A DNA stretch of 64,000 nt, from positions 806,001 to 870,000 of the forward strand of contig NC_017964.1 in assembly GCF_000219915.2 (NCBI RefSeq), in the 5' to 3' direction. Position numbers and translations under genes: made by a program. The notes beneath the pieces are model-generated. The model saw nothing but the letters and a program-made list of their open reading frames with translations, ran no database searches and had not been told where the DNA came from. The stretch comes from Advenella kashmirensis WT001 (GTDB lineage: Bacteria; Pseudomonadota; Gammaproteobacteria; Burkholderiales; Burkholderiaceae_B). Position 1 is the first letter of the stretch. Every line of letters starts with the position of its first letter. Positions 12,889-63,074 of the stretch are shown piece after piece.

Positions 12889-13916
12889 CGATTCGCGCGA
12901 TAACAGCCGGGATACGGCTTGCAGCGGGGATACTTTGTCGAACAGCACAGCGCAAACGGCTTCGGTAATCGGCATATCAATATTCAGCCGCGTGCGCGAG
13001 TCAGGGCGGCCCGGGCGCAGCGAACGCCTTCGGCGGTCATGCCCGAAGATAGGATCGTTTCCAGGTCCTGACCCCGGCCCAGCGCGACGCCCACCTGGCG
13101 GTTGCGCGACAGGTCTCCGGTTGCCGTCAGGACAAGGTCTCCCAGTCCGGTCAGCCCGCTGAAGGTGGCGGCCTCTCCGCCTAGCGCAAGGCCCAGGCGG
13201 CTCATTTCAGCCAGTCCACGGGTAATAAGCGCCGCGCGTGCATTCATGCCCAGTGCCAGGCCATCGGCAATGCCACAGGCAATCGCAATAACGTTTTTCA
13301 TGGCGCCGCCCACTTCTACGCCGACCACGTCCTGGCTTCGATAGATGCGCGTATTGCCCGCATGCAGGGCCTCTGTGGCACGTGCCCTCACGCACTCATG
13401 GCGGCTGGCCACAGTGAGTGCAACCGGCAGACCCTGCGCTACTTCACGCGCAAACGAGGGGCCGGACAGCACACCGGTATAGGGGACGATATCGTCAAGA
13501 ATGGCCTGCACCACTTCGTGAGGCAGGCGCGCCGTTTGCTGTTCGAATCCCTTGCAGGTCCACAGCACAGGCGTTGTGTGCAGGCCGGCAGCAGGCAGGC
13601 GCTCGCGCAAAATAGTACAGGTGTGGGCGATGGCGGCAACAGGGGTGCCCAGGATAATCAGGGAGGTTGACGCCTCTTGCAGAAACGCAAACGCCTGGTC
13701 CAGATTGTCGCTGGCAAGCAGGCTGGGAGGCAGGGGAATATCTTGTAGATATCGCGGATTGCGATGCTGCTGGTTGATGTGTCGTGCCGTTTCCGGGTCC
13801 CGCGCCCAGACCATGGTCTGGGCATTATTGCAGGCGGTATGCGCCAGCGCTGTGCCCCAACTGCCTGCTCCAAGAACGAGCACGCGCAATGACAACGGCG
13901 AGGGCGCAGGCGTCAT
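12877..13916 (-). CDS. gpsA: NAD(P)-dependent glycerol-3-phosphate dehydrogenase GpsA (one frameshift)
   Basis: Reduces dihydroxyacetone phosphate to sn-glycerol-3-phosphate for phospholipid synthesis. N-terminal NAD site [15 protein letters not shown]; conserved [17 protein letters not shown], the catalytic Lys region [21 protein letters not shown] and [12 protein letters not shown]. The uninterrupted frame stops early at 12984. Adding one C at about 12985-12989 (minus strand GGCTGA to GGCCTGA) restores the conserved tail [16 protein letters not shown] and an end at TAA 12877-12879. GpsA is normally essential, so a sequence error is likely. The start overlaps secB by four bases (ATGA). Confidence 0.9.
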
Positions 13917-14458
13917 GAGCGTTTATTGACGTGTTGTACCGGGAGGCACATAGATGCCTGAACACTGTCTGGTGCGCCATTGCCGCCAGCCTGGCTTTGT
14001 GCTTCCTGAACGCGTTGCTCATACAGTGCCTGGAAGTTCACTTCGGCCAGATGCAGTGGTGGCAGTGAGGTGCGGTTGATGGCATCGGCTACGTTGGCGC
14101 GCAGGTAAGGGAACAGCATGGTCGGGCAGACAATACCGATGAGTGGCTCGAACTGTTCTTCAGGTACATTGGCAATTTCAAAAATACCTGCTTGCGTGCC
14201 TTCGACCAGATACAGCGTTTTGTCGCCAATCTTGGTGGTGATCGTCACTGTCACGGTTGCTTCAAAAACGGTATCGGCCAGGCGCTCGCCGCCGACGTTC
14301 AGGGAGACTTCAACGTTCGGTGTTTCCTGCTCCAGGAAGATTTGCGGCGCGTTGGGCATTTCCAGGGAAAGGTCTTTAAGATAGACGCGTTGCATCGCGA
14401 ATACCGGATCTGTTCCTGTCGCGTCGTTGTTCGATGCAGCGTTGTTTTCGTCAGCCAT
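13913..14458 (-). CDS. secB: Protein-export chaperone SecB
   Basis: Cytoplasmic tetrameric chaperone that keeps preproteins unfolded and hands them to SecA. 181 residues with family blocks [47 protein letters not shown] and [19 protein letters not shown]. The C-terminus is somewhat longer than usual. It lies in the common betaproteobacterial order rhodanese-grxC-secB-gpsA, 39 bp after grxC. Confidence 0.95.
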
Positions 14459-14497
14459 ATAACTTCCTAAATGATGTAAATTTCAAAAATAAGCGGG

Positions 14498-14758
14498 TCA
14501 TGCACCCAGCATGGTAACCAGTTTTCCCTCACGGTCAAGGGCTATCAGATCGTCACAGCCGCCGATATGCGCCTGATCGATGAAGATTTGCGGCACGGTT
14601 GTGCGCCCGCCGGATCGTTCAATCATAGCAGCCCGCTGCTCCCGGTTTGTGTCAATACTGATTTTCTCCAGATCGCTCACCCCGCGCTCACGCAATAATT
14701 TTTCTGCGCGTACGCAGTAGGGGCAGGTCTGCTTGTAATACATGGTCACTTTTTTCAT
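14498..14758 (-). CDS. grxC: Glutaredoxin 3
   Basis: Small dithiol glutaredoxin, 86 residues, for glutathione-dependent disulfide reduction in the cytoplasm. Active site TCPYCVRA; the GSH-binding TVPQIFIDQAHIGGCDDL follows. Two adjacent ATGs exist (14761 and 14758). AAGG lies 6 bases before the second, giving MKKVTMYYKQ, the start expected for GrxC. The frame stays open further upstream but overlaps the rhodanese gene and has no homology there. Confidence 0.93.
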   Translation of the reverse strand: MKKVTMYYKQTCPYCVRAEKLLRERGVSDLEKISIDTNREQRAAMIERSGGRTTVPQIFIDQAHIGGCDDLIALDREGKLVTMLGA

Positions 14759-55645: not shown

Positions 55646-56166
55646 CTCGGTCTCCTGTTAATGCTGGATATGAGGTAATAGCAAGAAGTAAATTGACGCG
55701 GCTACCTGTCTATCAGATGCCTGTATTCAGGCGTACCTTTGGCGCGATTTGTTTTTATCATGTATGTGATTTCATTATATATTTTTCACAAAGCGTTTTT
55801 TTCCAGGCGAAAAAATCGCCCCAATGCCAGGAGCGTGTCGCTGATACAGAGGATGCTTTGTGGGCTTAGTGTCGTCCGGTCGGATGATTTATTGTTAGGG
55901 AGGCAAAGACGCAGCTCAAGTTTGCCAGATGACGTGCTTTTTGCCGACTTTGACGAAAAACACAATAACATATGTAACTAAATAATTCTTTTTTTAAAAA
56001 ATTACAACTAAATAGGGAAAATTAAACATAAGATGAAATTTATGTCTCTTTAGATAAAACAGTCTTCTTTTGGGCAGATATGATCTGCTTTGTAACAGAA
56101 AAAAGTTTTGTTTAGTAACATTCAGTATTTATTAGAATAACTTATAAGCTGTGGTGAGGCAAAAAA
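55646..56166. promoter_or_regulatory. A/T-rich upstream region of the ESPR-regulator gene
   Basis: I see no convincing gene in these 520 bp; an 80-codon frame at 55739-55981 has no ribosome site. The right 190 bp resemble the region before the adhesin gene: TAAATAATTC at 55979 is 188 bp before the regulator start (184 bp in the adhesin case), and GTTTAGTAACATTCAGTA at 56110-56127 is 57 bp before it (58 bp in the adhesin case, 16 of 18 bases identical). Confidence 0.65.
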
Positions 56167-56958
56167 ATGAACCAGACATATAAATCAATATGGTGTGAAA
56201 GAACGGGTAATTATATTAACTCCAACAGCCAGCACATCCTCATCGTCAGTGTTTGTCAGAGCTCGTTATCAGCGTTATGCGACAGTCTGGAAGCCCAGGG
56301 TTTTCATTTAAGCACCGCGCAAAATAATGTCAAGGGATATGAATGCGCCGCGACACAGTGTCCCAATCTGATTGTGCTTGACTTTAACATGACCGAGAGC
56401 CGCAACCGTTTTGAGTTGTTTGACATCCTGCGCAGTTCGTTATTGACCAAATATATTCCAATTATCATCCTGTGCAAATCGTCGGATTTGCAGACCCGTC
56501 TTCATGCCTTGCAACATGGTGCTTCGGATTTTATCTATGGGCAATACACGATAGAGGAGGTCGTGGCCAGGATGAATATTCATTTGTCCTACGCCAGGCA
56601 GAAGGTGCATCAAACCTTGCCCCTGCAGAAGGAAAACAGGGAAGCCACCATAAATCGCATCAAGCTCTATTTATCCGAGCACCTTAACGATCCACCGACT
56701 TTGGATCAGCTGGCAAGCGAGTTGGGGGTGCATAAGAAAAAACTGGCGCGTGTATTCCAGGCGCATATGCATGAAACGATATACGAGTACCTGAGCCGAC
56801 TGCGCCTGGACTATTCTCAGGTGCTGCTTAGGGAAACGCAGCTCAGTATCACAGATATTGCCGAAGAAATCGGCTTTACTTCTCTTTCGGCATTTACTTC
56901 TTCTTTTAGTAAACAGTATGGCATGCCGCCTACTGCTTACAGAAAAACGATGAGCTGA
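56167..56958 (+). CDS. Response regulator with AraC-type HTH and an ESPR-like N-terminus
   Basis: 263 residues. Residues 22-145 form a receiver domain (HILIVSVCQSSLSALCDSL; probable phosphoacceptor Asp in LIVLDFNM), and residues 160-263 an AraC/XylS double HTH (LDQLASELGVHKKKLARVFQ and ITDIAEEIGFTSLSAFTSSFSKQYG). The first 17 residues, MNQTYKSIWCERTGNYI, closely match the extended signal peptide region of the adhesin encoded downstream (MNRIYRSIWCEKTGTFV). No hydrophobic export segment follows, so the protein is presumably cytoplasmic. No kinase gene is adjacent. It very likely regulates the adhesin. The acidic pair expected near strand 1 is missing, so phosphorylation is uncertain. Confidence 0.85.
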   Translation: MNQTYKSIWCERTGNYINSNSQHILIVSVCQSSLSALCDSLEAQGFHLSTAQNNVKGYECAATQCPNLIVLDFNMTESRNRFELFDILRSSLLTKYIPIIILCKSSDLQTRLHALQHGASDFIYGQYTIEEVVARMNIHLSYARQKVHQTLPLQKENREATINRIKLYLSEHLNDPPTLDQLASELGVHKKKLARVFQAHMHETIYEYLSRLRLDYSQVLLRETQLSITDIAEEIGFTSLSAFTSSFSKQYGMPPTAYRKTMS

Positions 56959-57330
56959 CAACTTCGGCAGATCAGACACTCCACTCGCAAGAAATGTCTT
57001 TGCGGGCGAATGCGGCTGGACGTTCGGGCCGTCTGGCCGCAGGTACCTGCGGTTATCGCTACTGCGATTTTTGGTCATTTTTGAAAGATATTTCAAAAAA
57101 CGAAGCATTTAAACAACACAGAAAGTAAATAAATGTTAGTAAATATTAAATAATTCATAAAAATTTTATTCTGCTTTCCAATGTTTGTATTTGATGAAAC
57201 TTCTGTACTTATAGATAAAATGCCGGCTTTCCACTCTTCTATGATGCTTACGAAATAAGTACTAAATTTTTCGTTTAATAACATTTAGTAAAAATATGAA
57301 ATGTTATGGATTTCAATGGGGAGTTGGAAA
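56959..57330 (+). promoter_or_regulatory. Control region before the adhesin gene
   Basis: No gene. A perfect 16-bp palindrome CCGCAGGTACCTGCGG lies at 57037-57052 just after the regulator gene and may end its transcript. Closer to the adhesin are TAAATAATTC (57147-57156), a perfect 8-bp inverted repeat TACTAAAT (57260-57267) / ATTTAGTA (57283-57290) with a 15-base spacer, and GTTTAATAACATTTAGTA (57273-57290), the counterpart of the motif before the regulator. These are candidate binding sites. Confidence 0.6.
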
Positions 57331-60300
57331 ATGAATCGAATATACAGATCTATTTGGTGTGAAAAAACAGGCACTTTTGTTGCTGTGTCCGAAAATACAA
57401 AGAGAGGACGCAAAGCCAGCACCGGAACCGAAAAAACAGAGTTTGGTAGCCTGCCTTTTCATGATGTTGCGATCAAGGCGCTACTTCCGGTCTTATTCAC
57501 GGGCGCCATTGCCCTGTTTCCGCCAATGGCATTGGCCGCAGGGGATCTCACTACGTCAGAATGTACATTTTCCTGGGGGAATGATACTGGCGGCACGATA
57601 ACGATCAAGGGCGAGGGTACCGGGAGCTCCGATACGTTAGTCTGTGCTGAAGCGTTGCAAGGCCTGGTCGACAACCCATTGGAATATTTCAGCGTAAATT
57701 CTACTGGAGGAGGAAACGTTGACAATGATGGCGCAGCCGCTGCGGACGGTATTGCAATTGGCAAAGACGCTGTGGTCTCCATCGGGGCCACCAGCGGCGT
57801 TGCATTGGGGTTGGGTGCGACAACGACTGTCGCTAATGGTATTGCGCTGGGAGCAGGTTCGGTCGCCAATACGGCAGGAGGTATCGCACCGTACGCGCCC
57901 GTAGGAGCCTCCGTGCCTTCAATTGCTGCCGTTAATGCAACAACGAGTTCATTAGGCGCCTTGAGTGTCGGCGATCCAGCCACAGGGAAACTGCGTCAGA
58001 TTACCGGCGTTGCGGGTGGTACGCAGAATACGGATGCGGTCAATGTTAGCCAGTTGAAGGCAGTTGAAAGCCTGGCCACCGGCGCCGGGGCCGGCTGGAA
58101 CCTGACGGCCAATAACGGTGCGACCACACAGAACATCGCTCCGGGAGGCAGTGCGGACTTTATCGGCGGCACTAATACGAATGTGGTACAGACGGGTAAC
58201 CAGATCAAGGTCAACCTAAATGACAGCGTGAACCTGGCAGGCACACTGTCGGTGACCGGCTTGAGCACGTTCAATGGTGGCGCGGTGATCGGCGATAGCC
58301 TGACAGTGAATCCGGCTACAACGGTGAATATGGGCGGTAACCGGATCAATAACGTGGCCGCAGGGGTTGCTGATACCGATGCAGTCAATGTCAGCCAGTT
58401 GACCGACCAGGGCGAGGATCTGACAGCGAAGGGCCTGAACTTTGTGGGCAATGCCGGGTTATCTGTACATAAGGATCTGGGTCAAACCCTGTCTATTGTG
58501 GGTGGCGCGGTGCCGGTAGCAGGTACCTTCACAAGTCAGAATATACAAACGTTCAACGACGCCGGAGCCATTCGCATCCAGATGGCTGACTCGCCGAAGT
58601 TTGGCAATGTGGTCATTAACAGTGCCGGTTCAGGCAAGATTACAGGCGTCACCGATGGTGATGTTACTGCCCTAAGTTCCGACGCAGTGAATGGCAGCCA
58701 GCTGTTTGAGGTAGAGACAACAGCCAACAAAGGCTGGGATCTGACCGCCAATAATGGCGCTACCATACAGAACATCGCTCCCGGGGGCAGTGCAGACTTT
58801 ATCGGTGGTACCAACACGAACGTGGTACAGACCGGTAACCAGATCAAAGTTAATCTGAATGACAATGTGAATTTGGCTGGCACCCTGTCGGTAACGGGTC
58901 TGAGCACATTCAATGGCGGTGCGGTGATCGGTAATAGCCTGACAGTGAATCCAGTTACAACGGTGAATATGGGCGGTAACCGGATCACTAACGTGGCCGC
59001 AGGGGTTGCAGATACCGATGCGGTCAATGTCAGCCAGTTGACCAATCAGGGTGAGGATCTGACCGCCAAGGGCCTGAACTTTGTGGGTAATGATGCATTG
59101 TCAATACACAAGGACCTGGGTCAGACGCTTTCTATTGTCGGGGGCGCAGCGCCGGTAACGGGAACCTACTCAAGCCAGAATGTGCAAACGTTCAACGATG
59201 GCGGAGCATCCGCATTCAGATGGCCGATTCTCCGAAATTCGGAGGAGTTGTGATCAATGATGCTGGCAGCGGCAAGATCACGGGTGTCATGGACGGCGCA
59301 GTGACCGAGTTTAGCAAGGATGCAGTCAATGGCAGTCAACTCTTTGCCGTACAGAACACTGCGGGTGCTGGTTGGAATCTGACCGCCAACAACGGCGCGA
59401 CGACACAAAATATCGCCCCGGGGGGCAGTGCAGACTTTATTGGCGGTACCAATACGAACGTGGTGCAGACGGGTAACCAGATCAAGGTCAATCTGAATGA
59501 TAATGTGAATTTGGCTGGCACCTTATCGGTAACGGGCCTGAGCACGTTCAATGGCGGTGCGGTCATTGGCAACAGTCTGACGGTAAATCCGGGTACGACC
59601 GTGGATATGGGCGGCAACCGGATTAATAATGTAGCCGCAGGGGTTGCAGATACCGATGCAGTTAATGTCAGCCAGTTGACCGATCAGGGTGAGGATCTGA
59701 CAGCCAAGGGTTTGAATTTTGTGGGTAATGATGCATTGCCAATACACAAGGATCTGGGTCAGACGCTTTCTATTGTCGGGGGCACAGCGCCGGTAGCAGG
59801 TACATACTCAAGCCAGAATGTGCAAACATTCAACGATGGGGGAGCCATCCGCATTCAGATGGCTGATTCGCCGAAGTTCGGTAATGTGGTTATCAACGAT
59901 GGCGGCAGCGGCAAAATTACCGGCGTCACCGATGGGGATGTCACCGAACTGAGTACCGATGCGGTTAATGGTAGCCAGCTGTTTGGTGTGCAGACAACCG
60001 CAAACAAAGGCTGGAACCTGACAGCCAATAACGGTGCGACCACACAGAACATCGCTCCGGGGGGCAGTGCAGACTTTATCGGTGGCACCAACACGAACGT
60101 GGTGCAAACAGGCAATCAGATCAAGGTGAATCTGAATGACAATGTGAATCTGGCCGGCGCCCTGTCGGTAACGGGCCTGAGTACGTTCAATGGCGGTGCG
60201 GTGATCGGTAACAGTCTGACGGTTAACCCCGGTACGACCGTGGATATGGGTGGCAATCGGATCAATAACGTAGCCGCGGGGGTTGTGGGCACAGACGCCG

Positions 60301-62192
60301 TCAATGTCAGCCAGCTGACCGATCAGGGCGATGATCTGACGGCCAAGGGCTTGAACTTTGTAGGTAATGATGGGTTGTCGGTACACAAGGATCTGGGCCA
60401 GACACTTTCTATTGTAGGGGGTGCAGCGCCGGTAGCAGGAACCTACTCAAGCCAGAATGTACAAACGTTCAATGATGCGGGCGTAATCCGTATTCAGATG
60501 GCAGATTCTCCCCGATTTGGTGATGTCGTTATTAACGACGGAGGGTCCGGCAAAATCACGGGTGTGATGGACGGCGCAGTCACCGAGTTCAGTACCGATG
60601 CAGTCAACGGCAGTCAGTTGTTTGAAGTACAGACCACAGCAAACAAAGGCTGGAACCTGACAGCCAACAACGGCGCGACGACACAGAACATCGCTCCGGG
60701 GGGCAGTGCAGACTTTATCGGCGGCACTAACACGAACGTAGTGCAGACAGGCAATCAGATCAAGGTCAACCTGAATGACAATGTAGACCTGGCAGGCACG
60801 TTGTCAGTGATGGGACTAAGCACGTTCAATGGCGGTGCGGTGATCGGCAACAGCCTGACCATCAACCCGGGCACGATCGTAAATATGGGCGGAAACCGGA
60901 TCAATAATGTAGCAGCCGGTGTAGATCCCATGGACGCGATCAATGTCAGCCAGTTGAAGGACCAGGACGACGAGTTGACAGCCAAGGGCTTAAATTTTGC
61001 GGGTAATGTGGGCACTGTTCATCGTGATCTTGGTTCTACGATGGTGATCCAGGGCGGACTTGATCCACTGGCCGCAGCCTCCAACAAGAATATTCGTACG
61101 GAAGTTGACCCAGACACCGGCGCCATGAATATCATGTTGTCCGAATCTCCAGTGTTTGGGGCAGTGACTGTGAATGCCGGGGGCACCGGGAAAATTACCG
61201 GTGTTTCAGACGGGTTGGTTGCCAGCGGCAGTAAAGACGCAGTCAATGGCGGGCAATTGTTCGGCGTGCAACAGGAGATTGGCGAACTGAGCAACCTGCC
61301 CATTACGTTTACCGGCAATAGTGGATCGGTTGATCGCAAGCTTGGGCAGCAATTGAAGATCACCGGCGAAGCGACAACGGCAGGTACATATAGCGGGGCC
61401 AATATCCGCACGGTGGTGGAGGGCAATGAAGTCAAAGTCCAGATGGCGCAAGCCCCGGTATTTCAGGAGTTGACGGTTGCCGGCAATACCACCATAGGTG
61501 GATCACTGAATATGTCGGGCAACAAAATTACTAATGTGGGAGCAGGAGACATTAGTGCGACCAGTCAGGACGCAGTCAATGGCAGCCAGTTGTACAACAT
61601 TATCGGCGAAGTCAAAACAGTGGGCTGGAACCTGCAAACCAACGGCGACACACCGTCCAAGGTCCTGAACAACGATACGGTTCAACTCAACGACGGCAGT
61701 AACGTCAATATCACGCGCGACGGCAGGAACGTGACCATCGCCGTTGATGATAATCCGACCTTCAATAGTGTGAACATAGGGGGGGGCGCCTTCGTGGCCA
61801 ATTCACAATCAGTTGAGATCAGGCCGGAGACAAACGTGAGCATGGGCGGCAATCAGATTCATCAGGTCGCAAATGGTTCAGCCCCGATGGATGCGGTGAA
61901 CGTACGTCAATTGAGTAGCGTCGAGAGTAACCTGAATTCGCGGATCAATCGCGCTGAAAAACGGGCCGAGGCCGGCACTGCTGCAGCAATGGCGGTCGCT
62001 GGCTTACCTCAGGCATATCTGCCCGGAAAAAGCATGTTTGCGGTGGCCGGCAGTGTGTTTCAGGGAGAGTCCGGTGTCGCCATGGGCCTGTCCACCGTAT
62101 CGGGTAACGGAAAATGGGTTCTGAAAGGCTCGATCACCAGCTCCAGTCGCGGCCAGGTGGGTGGCACGGTTGGTGTCGGATACCAATGGTAA
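57331..62192 (+). CDS. Trimeric autotransporter adhesin, YadA family (one frameshift)
   Basis: Surface adhesin of about 1,620 residues. The N-terminus is an ESPR (MNRIYRSIWCEKTGTFVAVSE) and signal core (ALLPVLFTGAIALFPPMALAAG). A YadA-like head follows (GIAIGKDAVVSIGATSGVALG, GIALGAGSVAN), then neck/stalk units with DAVNVSQL and DAVNGSQLF in five 213-residue repeats, a coiled stalk, and a C-terminal beta-barrel anchor (RAEAGTAAAMAVAGLPQAYLPGKSMFAVAGSVFQGESGVAMG to GVGYQW). ATG 57331 is chosen at the ESPR with GGGAG before it. The frame breaks at 59206-59208 (GGAGCATCC for GGAGCCATCC). This could be a sequence error or, in a repeat array, real variation. Likely partners are the upstream regulator and the downstream lipoprotein. 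Confidence 0.92.
58093..61286 (+). repeat. Five tandem 639-bp (213-codon) repeats in the adhesin gene
   Basis: The codons for GW(N/D)LTANNGAT recur at 58093, 58732, 59370, 60009 and 60648: spacings 639, 638, 639, 639. The one 638 spacing contains the frameshift. Each unit encodes the same order of blocks, IAPGGSADFIGGTNTNVVQTGNQIKVNLND, then TFNGGAVIG, DAVNVSQL, LGQTLSIVGG and DAVNGSQLF. The second half of the fifth copy is clearly diverged. Confidence 0.93.
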
Positions 62193-62267
62193 TAATGCAA
62201 TAGAACACGCCGGTGCGTGCACGCATGCACCGGAGAAGAATCACCATGGTTTAAAGGGATACTTAAG

Positions 62268-63074
62268 ATGCGATATAAAATTTTCAAATCCAATCGGGCT
62301 GCCTTCGCCGTGACAGCAATCATGACTGTACTCCTGGCCGGCTGCTCGACGCTAAGCGACGTTAAACCCGACGGCACCAGTGACAATGTGGTGTGGCCCG
62401 ACGTAAACCGTATTACATTCGATAACAAGCAGGGCATTTATCCAACACAGCAAAGCATTTCACTGATTCGCCCCGGAATGACCAGGGACCAGCTCTATCA
62501 TCTGCTTGGTCGCCCGCACTTTGATGAGGGTTTTGGCAGCGACGAATGGGATTATCTCATGCACTTTCCCGGCGCCGGTCAGGGTGCAAATGACGTGACC
62601 CGTTGTCAGTTCAAGATTCTGTTCGACGCTGAGCATCTGGCCCGCAATATGTACTGGAAGCCGGTTGGTGACTCGGGCGCAGGCTGTCCTCCTGGCGCTG
62701 CACCGCAAACCTATACCCTGAGCGCCGATGCGTTATTTGAATTTGATCGCTCTACGCTTAGCGATGTGACATCAGGCCGGCAGGCGCTGAGCAAGCTGGC
62801 CGAAAGCCTGCGTGGCACGCAAGGCATCCGTGCCATTTCTGTTACAGGCCATACCGATAGGCTGGGCTCGAATGCGTATAATCAGCGCTTGTCTAAAGCC
62901 CGGGCCGATACGGTACGCGGCTATTTGATCCAGAACGGCGTTGCTGCCGATCTGATCCATAGTCGGGGCATGGGAGAATCTCAGCCGGTGGCGCAATGCA
63001 ATAACGGTGACGAGGCAGCGCTGATCCGTTGTCTGGTGCCCAATCGCCGTGTCGAGGTGACGGTGGAAAAATAA
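62268..63074 (+). CDS. BamE/SmpA-OmpA two-domain lipoprotein
   Basis: 268 residues. Lipobox VLLAGC near residue 24, so an outer-membrane lipoprotein. Residues 55-115 resemble BamE/SmpA (ISLIRPGMTRDQLYHLLGRPHFDEGFGSDEWDYLMHF). The C-terminal OmpA peptidoglycan-binding domain follows (LFEFDRSTLSD, ISVTGHTDRLGSNAYNQRLSKARADTVRGYLIQNGV, NRRVEVTVEK). ATG 62268 is chosen over 62217 because AAGGGA precedes it and a proper signal peptide starts there. It begins 75 bp after the adhesin; lipoproteins beside trimeric autotransporters, such as SadB, can help their assembly, so an accessory role is likely. Confidence 0.88.
   Translation: MRYKIFKSNRAAFAVTAIMTVLLAGCSTLSDVKPDGTSDNVVWPDVNRITFDNKQGIYPTQQSISLIRPGMTRDQLYHLLGRPHFDEGFGSDEWDYLMHFPGAGQGANDVTRCQFKILFDAEHLARNMYWKPVGDSGAGCPPGAAPQTYTLSADALFEFDRSTLSDVTSGRQALSKLAESLRGTQGIRAISVTGHTDRLGSNAYNQRLSKARADTVRGYLIQNGVAADLIHSRGMGESQPVAQCNNGDEAALIRCLVPNRRVEVTVEK

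Follow-up and report, generated by a model that had tools for sequence, protein, structure and literature searches.

The question raised by this locus is why a transcription regulator should begin in the same way as the adhesin encoded beside it. In the window, by which is meant the whole 64,000-nucleotide stretch of Advenella kashmirensis WT001 DNA that was analyzed, a gene for a receiver/AraC regulator is followed by a trimeric autotransporter adhesin and then by a BamE+OmpA lipoprotein (Table 1), and both the regulator and the adhesin start with an ESPR or ESPR-like segment. As set out in the portion of PMC8151025 drawn on here, about 10% of type V secreted proteins begin with an extended signal peptide that contains an ESPR, whose mode of action is unsettled: an ESPR alone cannot act as a signal, its proposed effects include a slowed inner-membrane export, and SRP, trigger factor, SecB or YidC are discussed for single cases. 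A cytosolic factor has also been proposed (PMC2805444).

The ESPR-like start of the regulator

The first 17 residues of the regulator, MNQTYKSIWCERTGNYI, align with those of the adhesin, MNRIYRSIWCEKTGTFV (57331-57381), at 10 of 17 identities, as a preliminary description of this DNA had reported, and match positions 1-17 of Pfam PF13018 with 18.4 bits and an E value of 0.003, a sub-threshold score (cut-off, 25). The adhesin's ESPR reaches 54 bits with the same model. When the whole genome was searched with PF13018, the regulator (E 0.0047) ranked fourth among six matches up to E 10, and three tagged relatives scored 15.1 to 16.5 bits, all below the cut-off. The conserved ESPR residues number about 25, of which the regulator has the first 17 only; the segment had originally been drawn to 56220, and codons 1-17 of that interval stand while the last codon (56218-56220) lies outside the segment, since the likeness ends at codon 17.

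Under BLOSUM62, the regulator and adhesin 17-mers scored 72 against each other. For comparison, 19,738 distinct N-termini were collected from the window and 35 loci by taking each in-frame start of all frames of at least 100 amino acids; the best of those without an ESPR reached 27 against the adhesin 17-mer, and the seven above that score all belonged to ESPR adhesins, to this regulator, or to its two Advenella orthologues. Unrelated proteins with the same N-terminus, a concern voiced in the preliminary description, were thus not found above 27 in this set, and its second concern, a true start downstream of the segment, was rejected because the frame offers no further start codon before codon 70, which falls within the receiver; in-frame stops lie upstream. 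A chance resemblance, or a misannotated start upstream of the true one, has in its favor the Pfam score under the curated cut-off, but is scarcely credible beside the position of codon 70, the distance between 72 and 27, and the Cys and upstream blocks shared with the adhesin (see below). The ESPR start of the regulator is real.

The segment (the tag) is also specific in its resemblance. At the place of the regulator's Cys10, 45 of 48 ESPRs (the stronger matches with loci, among the matches listed) carry Asn or Ser and three carry Cys, all three being the partner adhesin; this Cys after the ESPR Trp recurs in the regulator and in P0002, a metagenomic relative. Among the same 48, again within the matches listed, the neighboring adhesin's ESPRs most resemble regulator residues 1-17. 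A DNA pattern for I-W-C-E-x-T-G occurred in 10 of 399 genomes of the order, and the 9 besides the own genome were non-ESPR. From the distribution of Cys10 and the result with this pattern, the regulator resembles its own neighbor's ESPR rather than any ESPR. As a separate observation, three Advenella genomes have frames, of 771, 3208, and 3152 amino acids, that open with a divergent type of ESPR, MNKRCYRLRFN... (G000 C1:3695441-3695554, locus L003; L053; L059).

No hydrophobic signal core was seen by eye after the tag, in agreement with what had been described, and the Pfam receiver begins at residue 25. Nor is there a passenger or translocator of an exported type V protein: the receiver (residues 25-135, 38.8 bits) is followed by an AraC-type double helix-turn-helix (residues 182-260, PF12833, 79.2 bits, cut-off 33.6). 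In the AlphaFold model the tag has low confidence (pLDDT about 43-48), perhaps with a hairpin at residues 7-18, and at that confidence the prediction is of no help on a binding partner.

Between regulator and adhesin lies a terminator-like hairpin (57048-57066; 7 such sites in the stretch searched versus 1.9 in shuffles), so that the two genes may be separate transcription units. No promoter is claimed, as the count of sigma-70 promoters (5) equals that of shuffles (mean, 4.5). The adhesin is here in two overlapping frames and is a single frame of 1843 amino acids in two other Advenella genomes (G071 and G150); the split may be a sequencing error or a true break.

Table 1. Features of the regulator-adhesin locus, in window coordinates
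Feature	Position	Strand	Basis or remark
Distal shared block before regulator (GATGAAATTTATGTCTCTTTAGATAAAA)	56032..56059	+	-135 to -108
Proximal shared block before regulator (GTTTAGTAACATTCAGTA)	56110..56127	+	-57 to -40
Receiver/AraC regulator gene, ESPR start	56167..56958	+	263 aa
ESPR-like codons 1-17 of regulator	56167..56217	+	PF13018 match, alignment to adhesin ESPR
Degenerate receiver domain	56239..56571	+	Acidic pair, Thr/Ser, and Lys replaced; Asp72 kept
AraC-type DNA-binding domain (HTH_18)	56710..56946	+	Pfam
Distal shared block before adhesin	57193..57220	+	-138 to -111
Proximal shared block before adhesin	57273..57290	+	-58 to -41
ESPR of trimeric autotransporter adhesin	57331..57435	+	Pfam positions 1-35
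Adhesin, first reading frame (ESPR and YadA stalk)	57331..59253	+	
Adhesin, second overlapping reading frame (YadA stalk and anchor)	59220..62192	+	
BamE+OmpA lipoprotein, TpgA-like adhesin partner	62217..63074	+	NF047726, 154 bits, cut-off 350

A shared 5' module and the constraint on its peptide

The likeness between the two genes extends into the DNA before them, a feature absent from the preliminary description, as were the broken phospho-chemistry of the receiver, the missing kinase, and the untagged regulators beside adhesins that are treated further below. Two blocks, one distal and one proximal, stand in register ahead of regulator and adhesin in each of the three Advenella genomes with the pair, and the downstream end of the proximal block falls between -41 and -39 at every one of the six promoters (-56 to -39 before the regulator of G150). 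When the 220 bases ahead of the regulator were locally aligned with the 220 ahead of the adhesin, the scores were 58, 56, and 43 (P of 0.003, 0.0005, and 0.017 by 2000 dinucleotide shuffles per genome), P values that are not independent because the three genomes are close relatives. The bases directly before the ATG are poorly alike between the two genes. The likeness starts upstream of the ATG and not at it: regulator and adhesin share a 5' module running from the upstream blocks to codon 17, and it is by virtue of this module that the regulator's product begins with the adhesin's ESPR.

The proximal block is rare and tied to these promoters, though its count alone is no proof. At up to one mismatch the pattern matched eight times in 10 Advenella genomes: at the six promoters, which match exactly by construction because the pattern was fitted to them, and at two one-mismatch sites (G000, the own genome, and G134), that of the own genome sitting within a carboxylase gene. 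The reversed control gave 7 matches versus 8, so the count by itself shows nothing. A wider regulon sought through this block was set aside for the same reasons, a fitted pattern and a control of 7 versus 8, with none convincing.

Within the module the peptide has been kept while the codons have drifted. Over codons 2-17, regulator versus adhesin, silent sites are near saturation in the three genomes (pS of 0.74, 0.83, and 0.63) and replacement sites are not (pN of 0.18, 0.24, and 0.23), and when the same base changes were placed at random, a peptide at least as similar arose with P of 0.002, 0.0008, and 0.003. By plain identity the same permutation gave P of 0.13-0.29, which places the signal of the tag in its conservative replacements. 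The permutation shows constraint on the regulator-adhesin pair of tags. For the regulator's own branch, the evidence from Advenella alone is suggestive: 4 silent and 3 replacement changes were counted by eye, and seven random replacements reach the observed similarity of the tags with P of 0.003, a value that becomes 0.16 in the worst case, in which only the four least conservative replacements fell on the regulator's branch. The regulator of G071 has lost the Gly of the ESPR motif, which counts against strict constraint.

P0002, which comes from a contig of 2923 bases and is 65% identical to the regulator overall, keeps 10 of its 17 tag residues, compared with 2 of 5 in the linker that follows and 6 of 15 in the inter-domain linker. 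Its residues 1-17 are matched by the Pfam ESPR model (16.5 bits) and are identical to the adhesin ESPR at 11 of 17 places. For the 9 of 16 tag residues that it retains after the Met, P is 0.0075 if 25% identity is expected, 0.00016 at 15%, and 0.07 at 35%. Nearly saturated silent sites together with a kept peptide indicate that the tag most likely has a job in the regulator, a point that these data show in part.

Two explanations would dispense with such a job. By the first, the regulator lost its original start to a copy of the adhesin's promoter, leader, and first 17 codons, which put both genes under the same control, and the ESPR came along as a functionless passenger. Upstream blocks, leader spacing, and codons 1-17 are indeed shared as one stretch, the likeness stops five residues before the first predicted strand of the receiver, matches to untagged relatives begin at residues 16-23, the tag has low predicted order, and the receiver has degenerated in proteins without the tag as well. 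A passenger would not be expected to keep its peptide through conservative replacements while silent sites approach saturation (P of 0.003 for seven random replacements), nor to persist at 9 of 16 residues in a protein as distant as P0002, and we regard this promoter capture as a substantial possibility of about one in three. The same evidence bears on the earlier suggestion that the segment is a relic of gene duplication: the shared upstream blocks fit a duplicated stretch, and the saturated silent sites and the retention in P0002 argue against a decaying relic.

By the second, a small RNA, an RNA-binding protein, or the ribosome (through a slow start) would recognize a leader and start region common to both messengers, the likeness of the peptides being a by-product. 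Codons 9-11 (TGGTGTGAA) are identical in five of the six genes and one base off in the sixth, and the nearly constant end of the proximal block in all six is likewise consistent with control at this level. No common RNA fold worth the name was found among the six leaders, however (consensus energy, -1.67 kcal/mol), the bases before the ATG of regulator and adhesin are poorly alike, and within the shared codons silent positions have diverged more than replacement ones. The common RNA leader put forward in the preliminary description thus finds little support, and we consider control of this kind unlikely, at roughly one chance in ten.

Receiver decay and untagged relatives beside adhesins

The receiver behind the tag has lost most of its phospho-chemistry. 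In all four tagged proteins the acidic pair DD is replaced by SV or SN and the Lys by Gly, and the Thr/Ser site is occupied by Cys, Cys, Ser (G150), and Gly (P0002). The phospho-acceptor Asp72 is kept in all four, so phosphorylation might still occur. The nearest HATPase_c match in the own genome is about 54 kb from the regulator, and no kinase was found in loci L091 and L092 with one kinase as the query. Of the 35 loci opened, 17 have a kinase related to that of B. pyrrocinia, and the kinase-side regulator keeps DD, Asp, and Lys in all 17. Key receiver residues are also lost in untagged regulators from loci without the kinase (L111, one of two in L113, L116-L120, L121, and L122). A FastTree phylogeny of 43 sequences groups the four tagged proteins together (support, 1.0) inside a ten-member clade (support, 0.94); its remaining six members, those of L116-L120 and L121, are likewise degenerate. 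Loss of the chemistry thus goes beyond the tagged proteins, and receiver decay may have preceded acquisition of the tag. The L116-L120 proteins, near the tagged clade in the tree, are a second, degenerate receiver/AraC protein of the Advenella genomes G178, G095, G150, G071, and G134; in L118 and L119 the gene is flanked by dgt-like and ligase-like genes, with aroK-aroB and uvrA close by (names assigned by eye).

Most relatives with a receiver and an AraC domain are untagged. Such relatives were found in 28 of 200 genomes of the family at E of 1e-25 or below; a profile (A1) matched 19 of 268 family genomes at E of 1e-40 or below and 2 of 399 genomes of the order, the own genome being counted in both, with the best few candidates per genome scored in these searches. 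Of 20 family rows at E of 1e-40 or below, 3 begin at residue 1, these being the Advenella trio, and 17 begin at residues 16-23, as do the 2 rows outside the trio in the order-level search; among the 268 family genomes no match other than the trio's extends to residue 1 at that threshold. A protein and profile search of 5.8 billion proteins returned P0001 and P0002 as the sole full-length close relatives and missed the relatives of about 35% identity, so absence from it means little; a search with residues 1-40 returned P0001 alone and missed even P0002. Variovorax matches starting at residue 2 were tried as tagged candidates and rejected, no ESPR being found in them with our own profile of 45 ESPR sequences.

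Within Advenella, the tagged regulator occurs in 3 of 10 genomes and a YadA-type adhesin adjoins it in all three, which supports the arrangement that had been described, an ESPR-type start on a regulator beside a trimeric autotransporter. Across the 35 loci, a crude anchor query found a YadA-type adhesin in five (L091, L092, L095, L100, and L142). In all four annotated plasmid records that were opened (B. pyrrocinia twice, B. multivorans, and P. aromaticivorans; from 20 matches listed of 391), a YadA-like gene lies divergent from the regulator and within about 6 kb of it, with three genes in between in the B. multivorans record; a kinase follows the regulator, and the regulators have ordinary N-termini. 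Two Variovorax plasmid records that were opened came without a gene table.

In two genomes of genus g21, an untagged regulator lies directly upstream of an ESPR adhesin, and an upstream block is common to both genes, with scores of 53 and 47 that none of 500 shuffles each reached (for L095, the bases compared were counted from the start of the open frame; counted from the likely ATG, the block is in register). Promoter DNA is thus common to regulator and adhesin here without any tag, so that co-control can dispense with it, and in Advenella and P0002 the tag represents a further step. In both g21 loci (L095 7786-14622 and L100 7076-14611) the shared block contains CATAGT, and beyond the adhesin there is a kinase together with a second regulator. 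At the phospho-acceptor position of the L095 regulator (13750-14622) stands Glu (MEASIP), which might resemble an active state; its L100 counterpart has Asp.

A proposed feedback loop and its place among known systems

Judged from its sequence, the regulator is an orphan that probably activates transcription without phosphorylation, having promoter sites and tag in common with the adhesin, its presumed target. It is a kinase-less member of a family that lies with a histidine kinase near YadA-type adhesins in Burkholderia and g21. Most likely it binds both candidate blocks, which stand before its own gene and before the adhesin's at almost equal distances, and so would switch on both together. 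With the phospho-input lost, the likeliest job of the tag would be to stand in for that input. This reading as a whole (orphan regulator, twin blocks, and a kept tag in place of phospho-input) is the one we favor, at slightly less than even odds.

How the tag might do so is more speculative. Regulator and nascent adhesin may meet at one targeting factor or Sec-proximal site, either competing for it or being delayed by it, and adhesin traffic would then feed back on adhesin transcription, with the tag as sensor and the free or occupied state of the shared targeting route setting the activator and its twin promoters. We put forward this secretion-coupled loop as a conjecture with perhaps one chance in five. 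In a special form of the favored reading, without competition for a soluble factor, the tag would park the regulator at the inner membrane or a Sec site, a role already proposed for the ESPR in type V precursors, and adhesin precursors would displace it from there. The lost phospho-input would suit such a tether, as would the slowing of export at the inner membrane that ESPRs, which are no signal alone, are thought to bring about in the account cited above (PMC8151025); a tag of 17 ESPR residues and no hydrophobic core speaks against it, and we think it rather improbable.

Export-coupled regulators are known from flagella and injection systems. We know of none for type V secretion, for which the loop, if true, would be a one-component counterpart based on peptide mimicry. 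An ESPR seemingly kept on a non-exported protein would in any case allow a clean test, free of passenger and barrel, in which whatever the tag binds or is slowed by would be the ESPR's own partner. The naturally twinned promoter pair likewise offers a handle on the operator of an adhesin-linked regulator family that spans several genera of Burkholderiales.

Several known systems resemble parts of this arrangement. The trimeric autotransporter adhesin cluster of B. cenocepacia, BCAM0218-BCAM0228, holds histidine kinases and response regulators (PMC3404963), and Burkholderia adhesin clusters share with the present locus regulator genes beside trimeric autotransporter genes, the likeness to the BCAM cluster being by its description in the part of that source used. 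The receiver/AraC proteins of B. pyrrocinia (two records), B. multivorans, and P. aromaticivorans are 33-35% identical to the tagged regulator but differ in having a kinase gene directly downstream and an ordinary N-terminus with no ESPR; the B. pyrrocinia protein, when aligned, has an intact receiver, unlike the tagged one. With PF13018 proteins the regulator shares the fit of its first 17 residues to the first 17 positions, whereas it lacks their hydrophobic core, passenger, and barrel, has a DNA-binding carrier, and scores below threshold. The TpgA-type system (NF047726) likewise has a BamE+OmpA lipoprotein following the adhesin, but here the lipoprotein reaches only 154 of 350 bits and a tagged regulator is present.

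By situation, the nearest parallel is TIGR04094, the AraC-type regulators beside Gram-positive YSIRK antigens, in which an AraC-type regulator again adjoins a surface protein with a special signal peptide. EbrB beside esp is an example (PMC3669262), and Spy1337 beside R28 is a proposed activator of itself and its neighbor (PMC7098570), as far as the parts of these sources used here describe them. TIGR04094 is also the best NCBIfam match for the AraC part of the regulator, at 60.4 bits over model positions 259-383 of 383; the match differs from family members in falling below the cut-off of 200 and in covering only the DNA-binding part. Among literature titles and the beginnings of abstracts, nothing was found on an ESPR-bearing regulator with twin promoters. 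Regulators beside adhesins are thus a known arrangement, and what appears to be new at this locus is the ESPR on such a regulator, together with its twin promoters.
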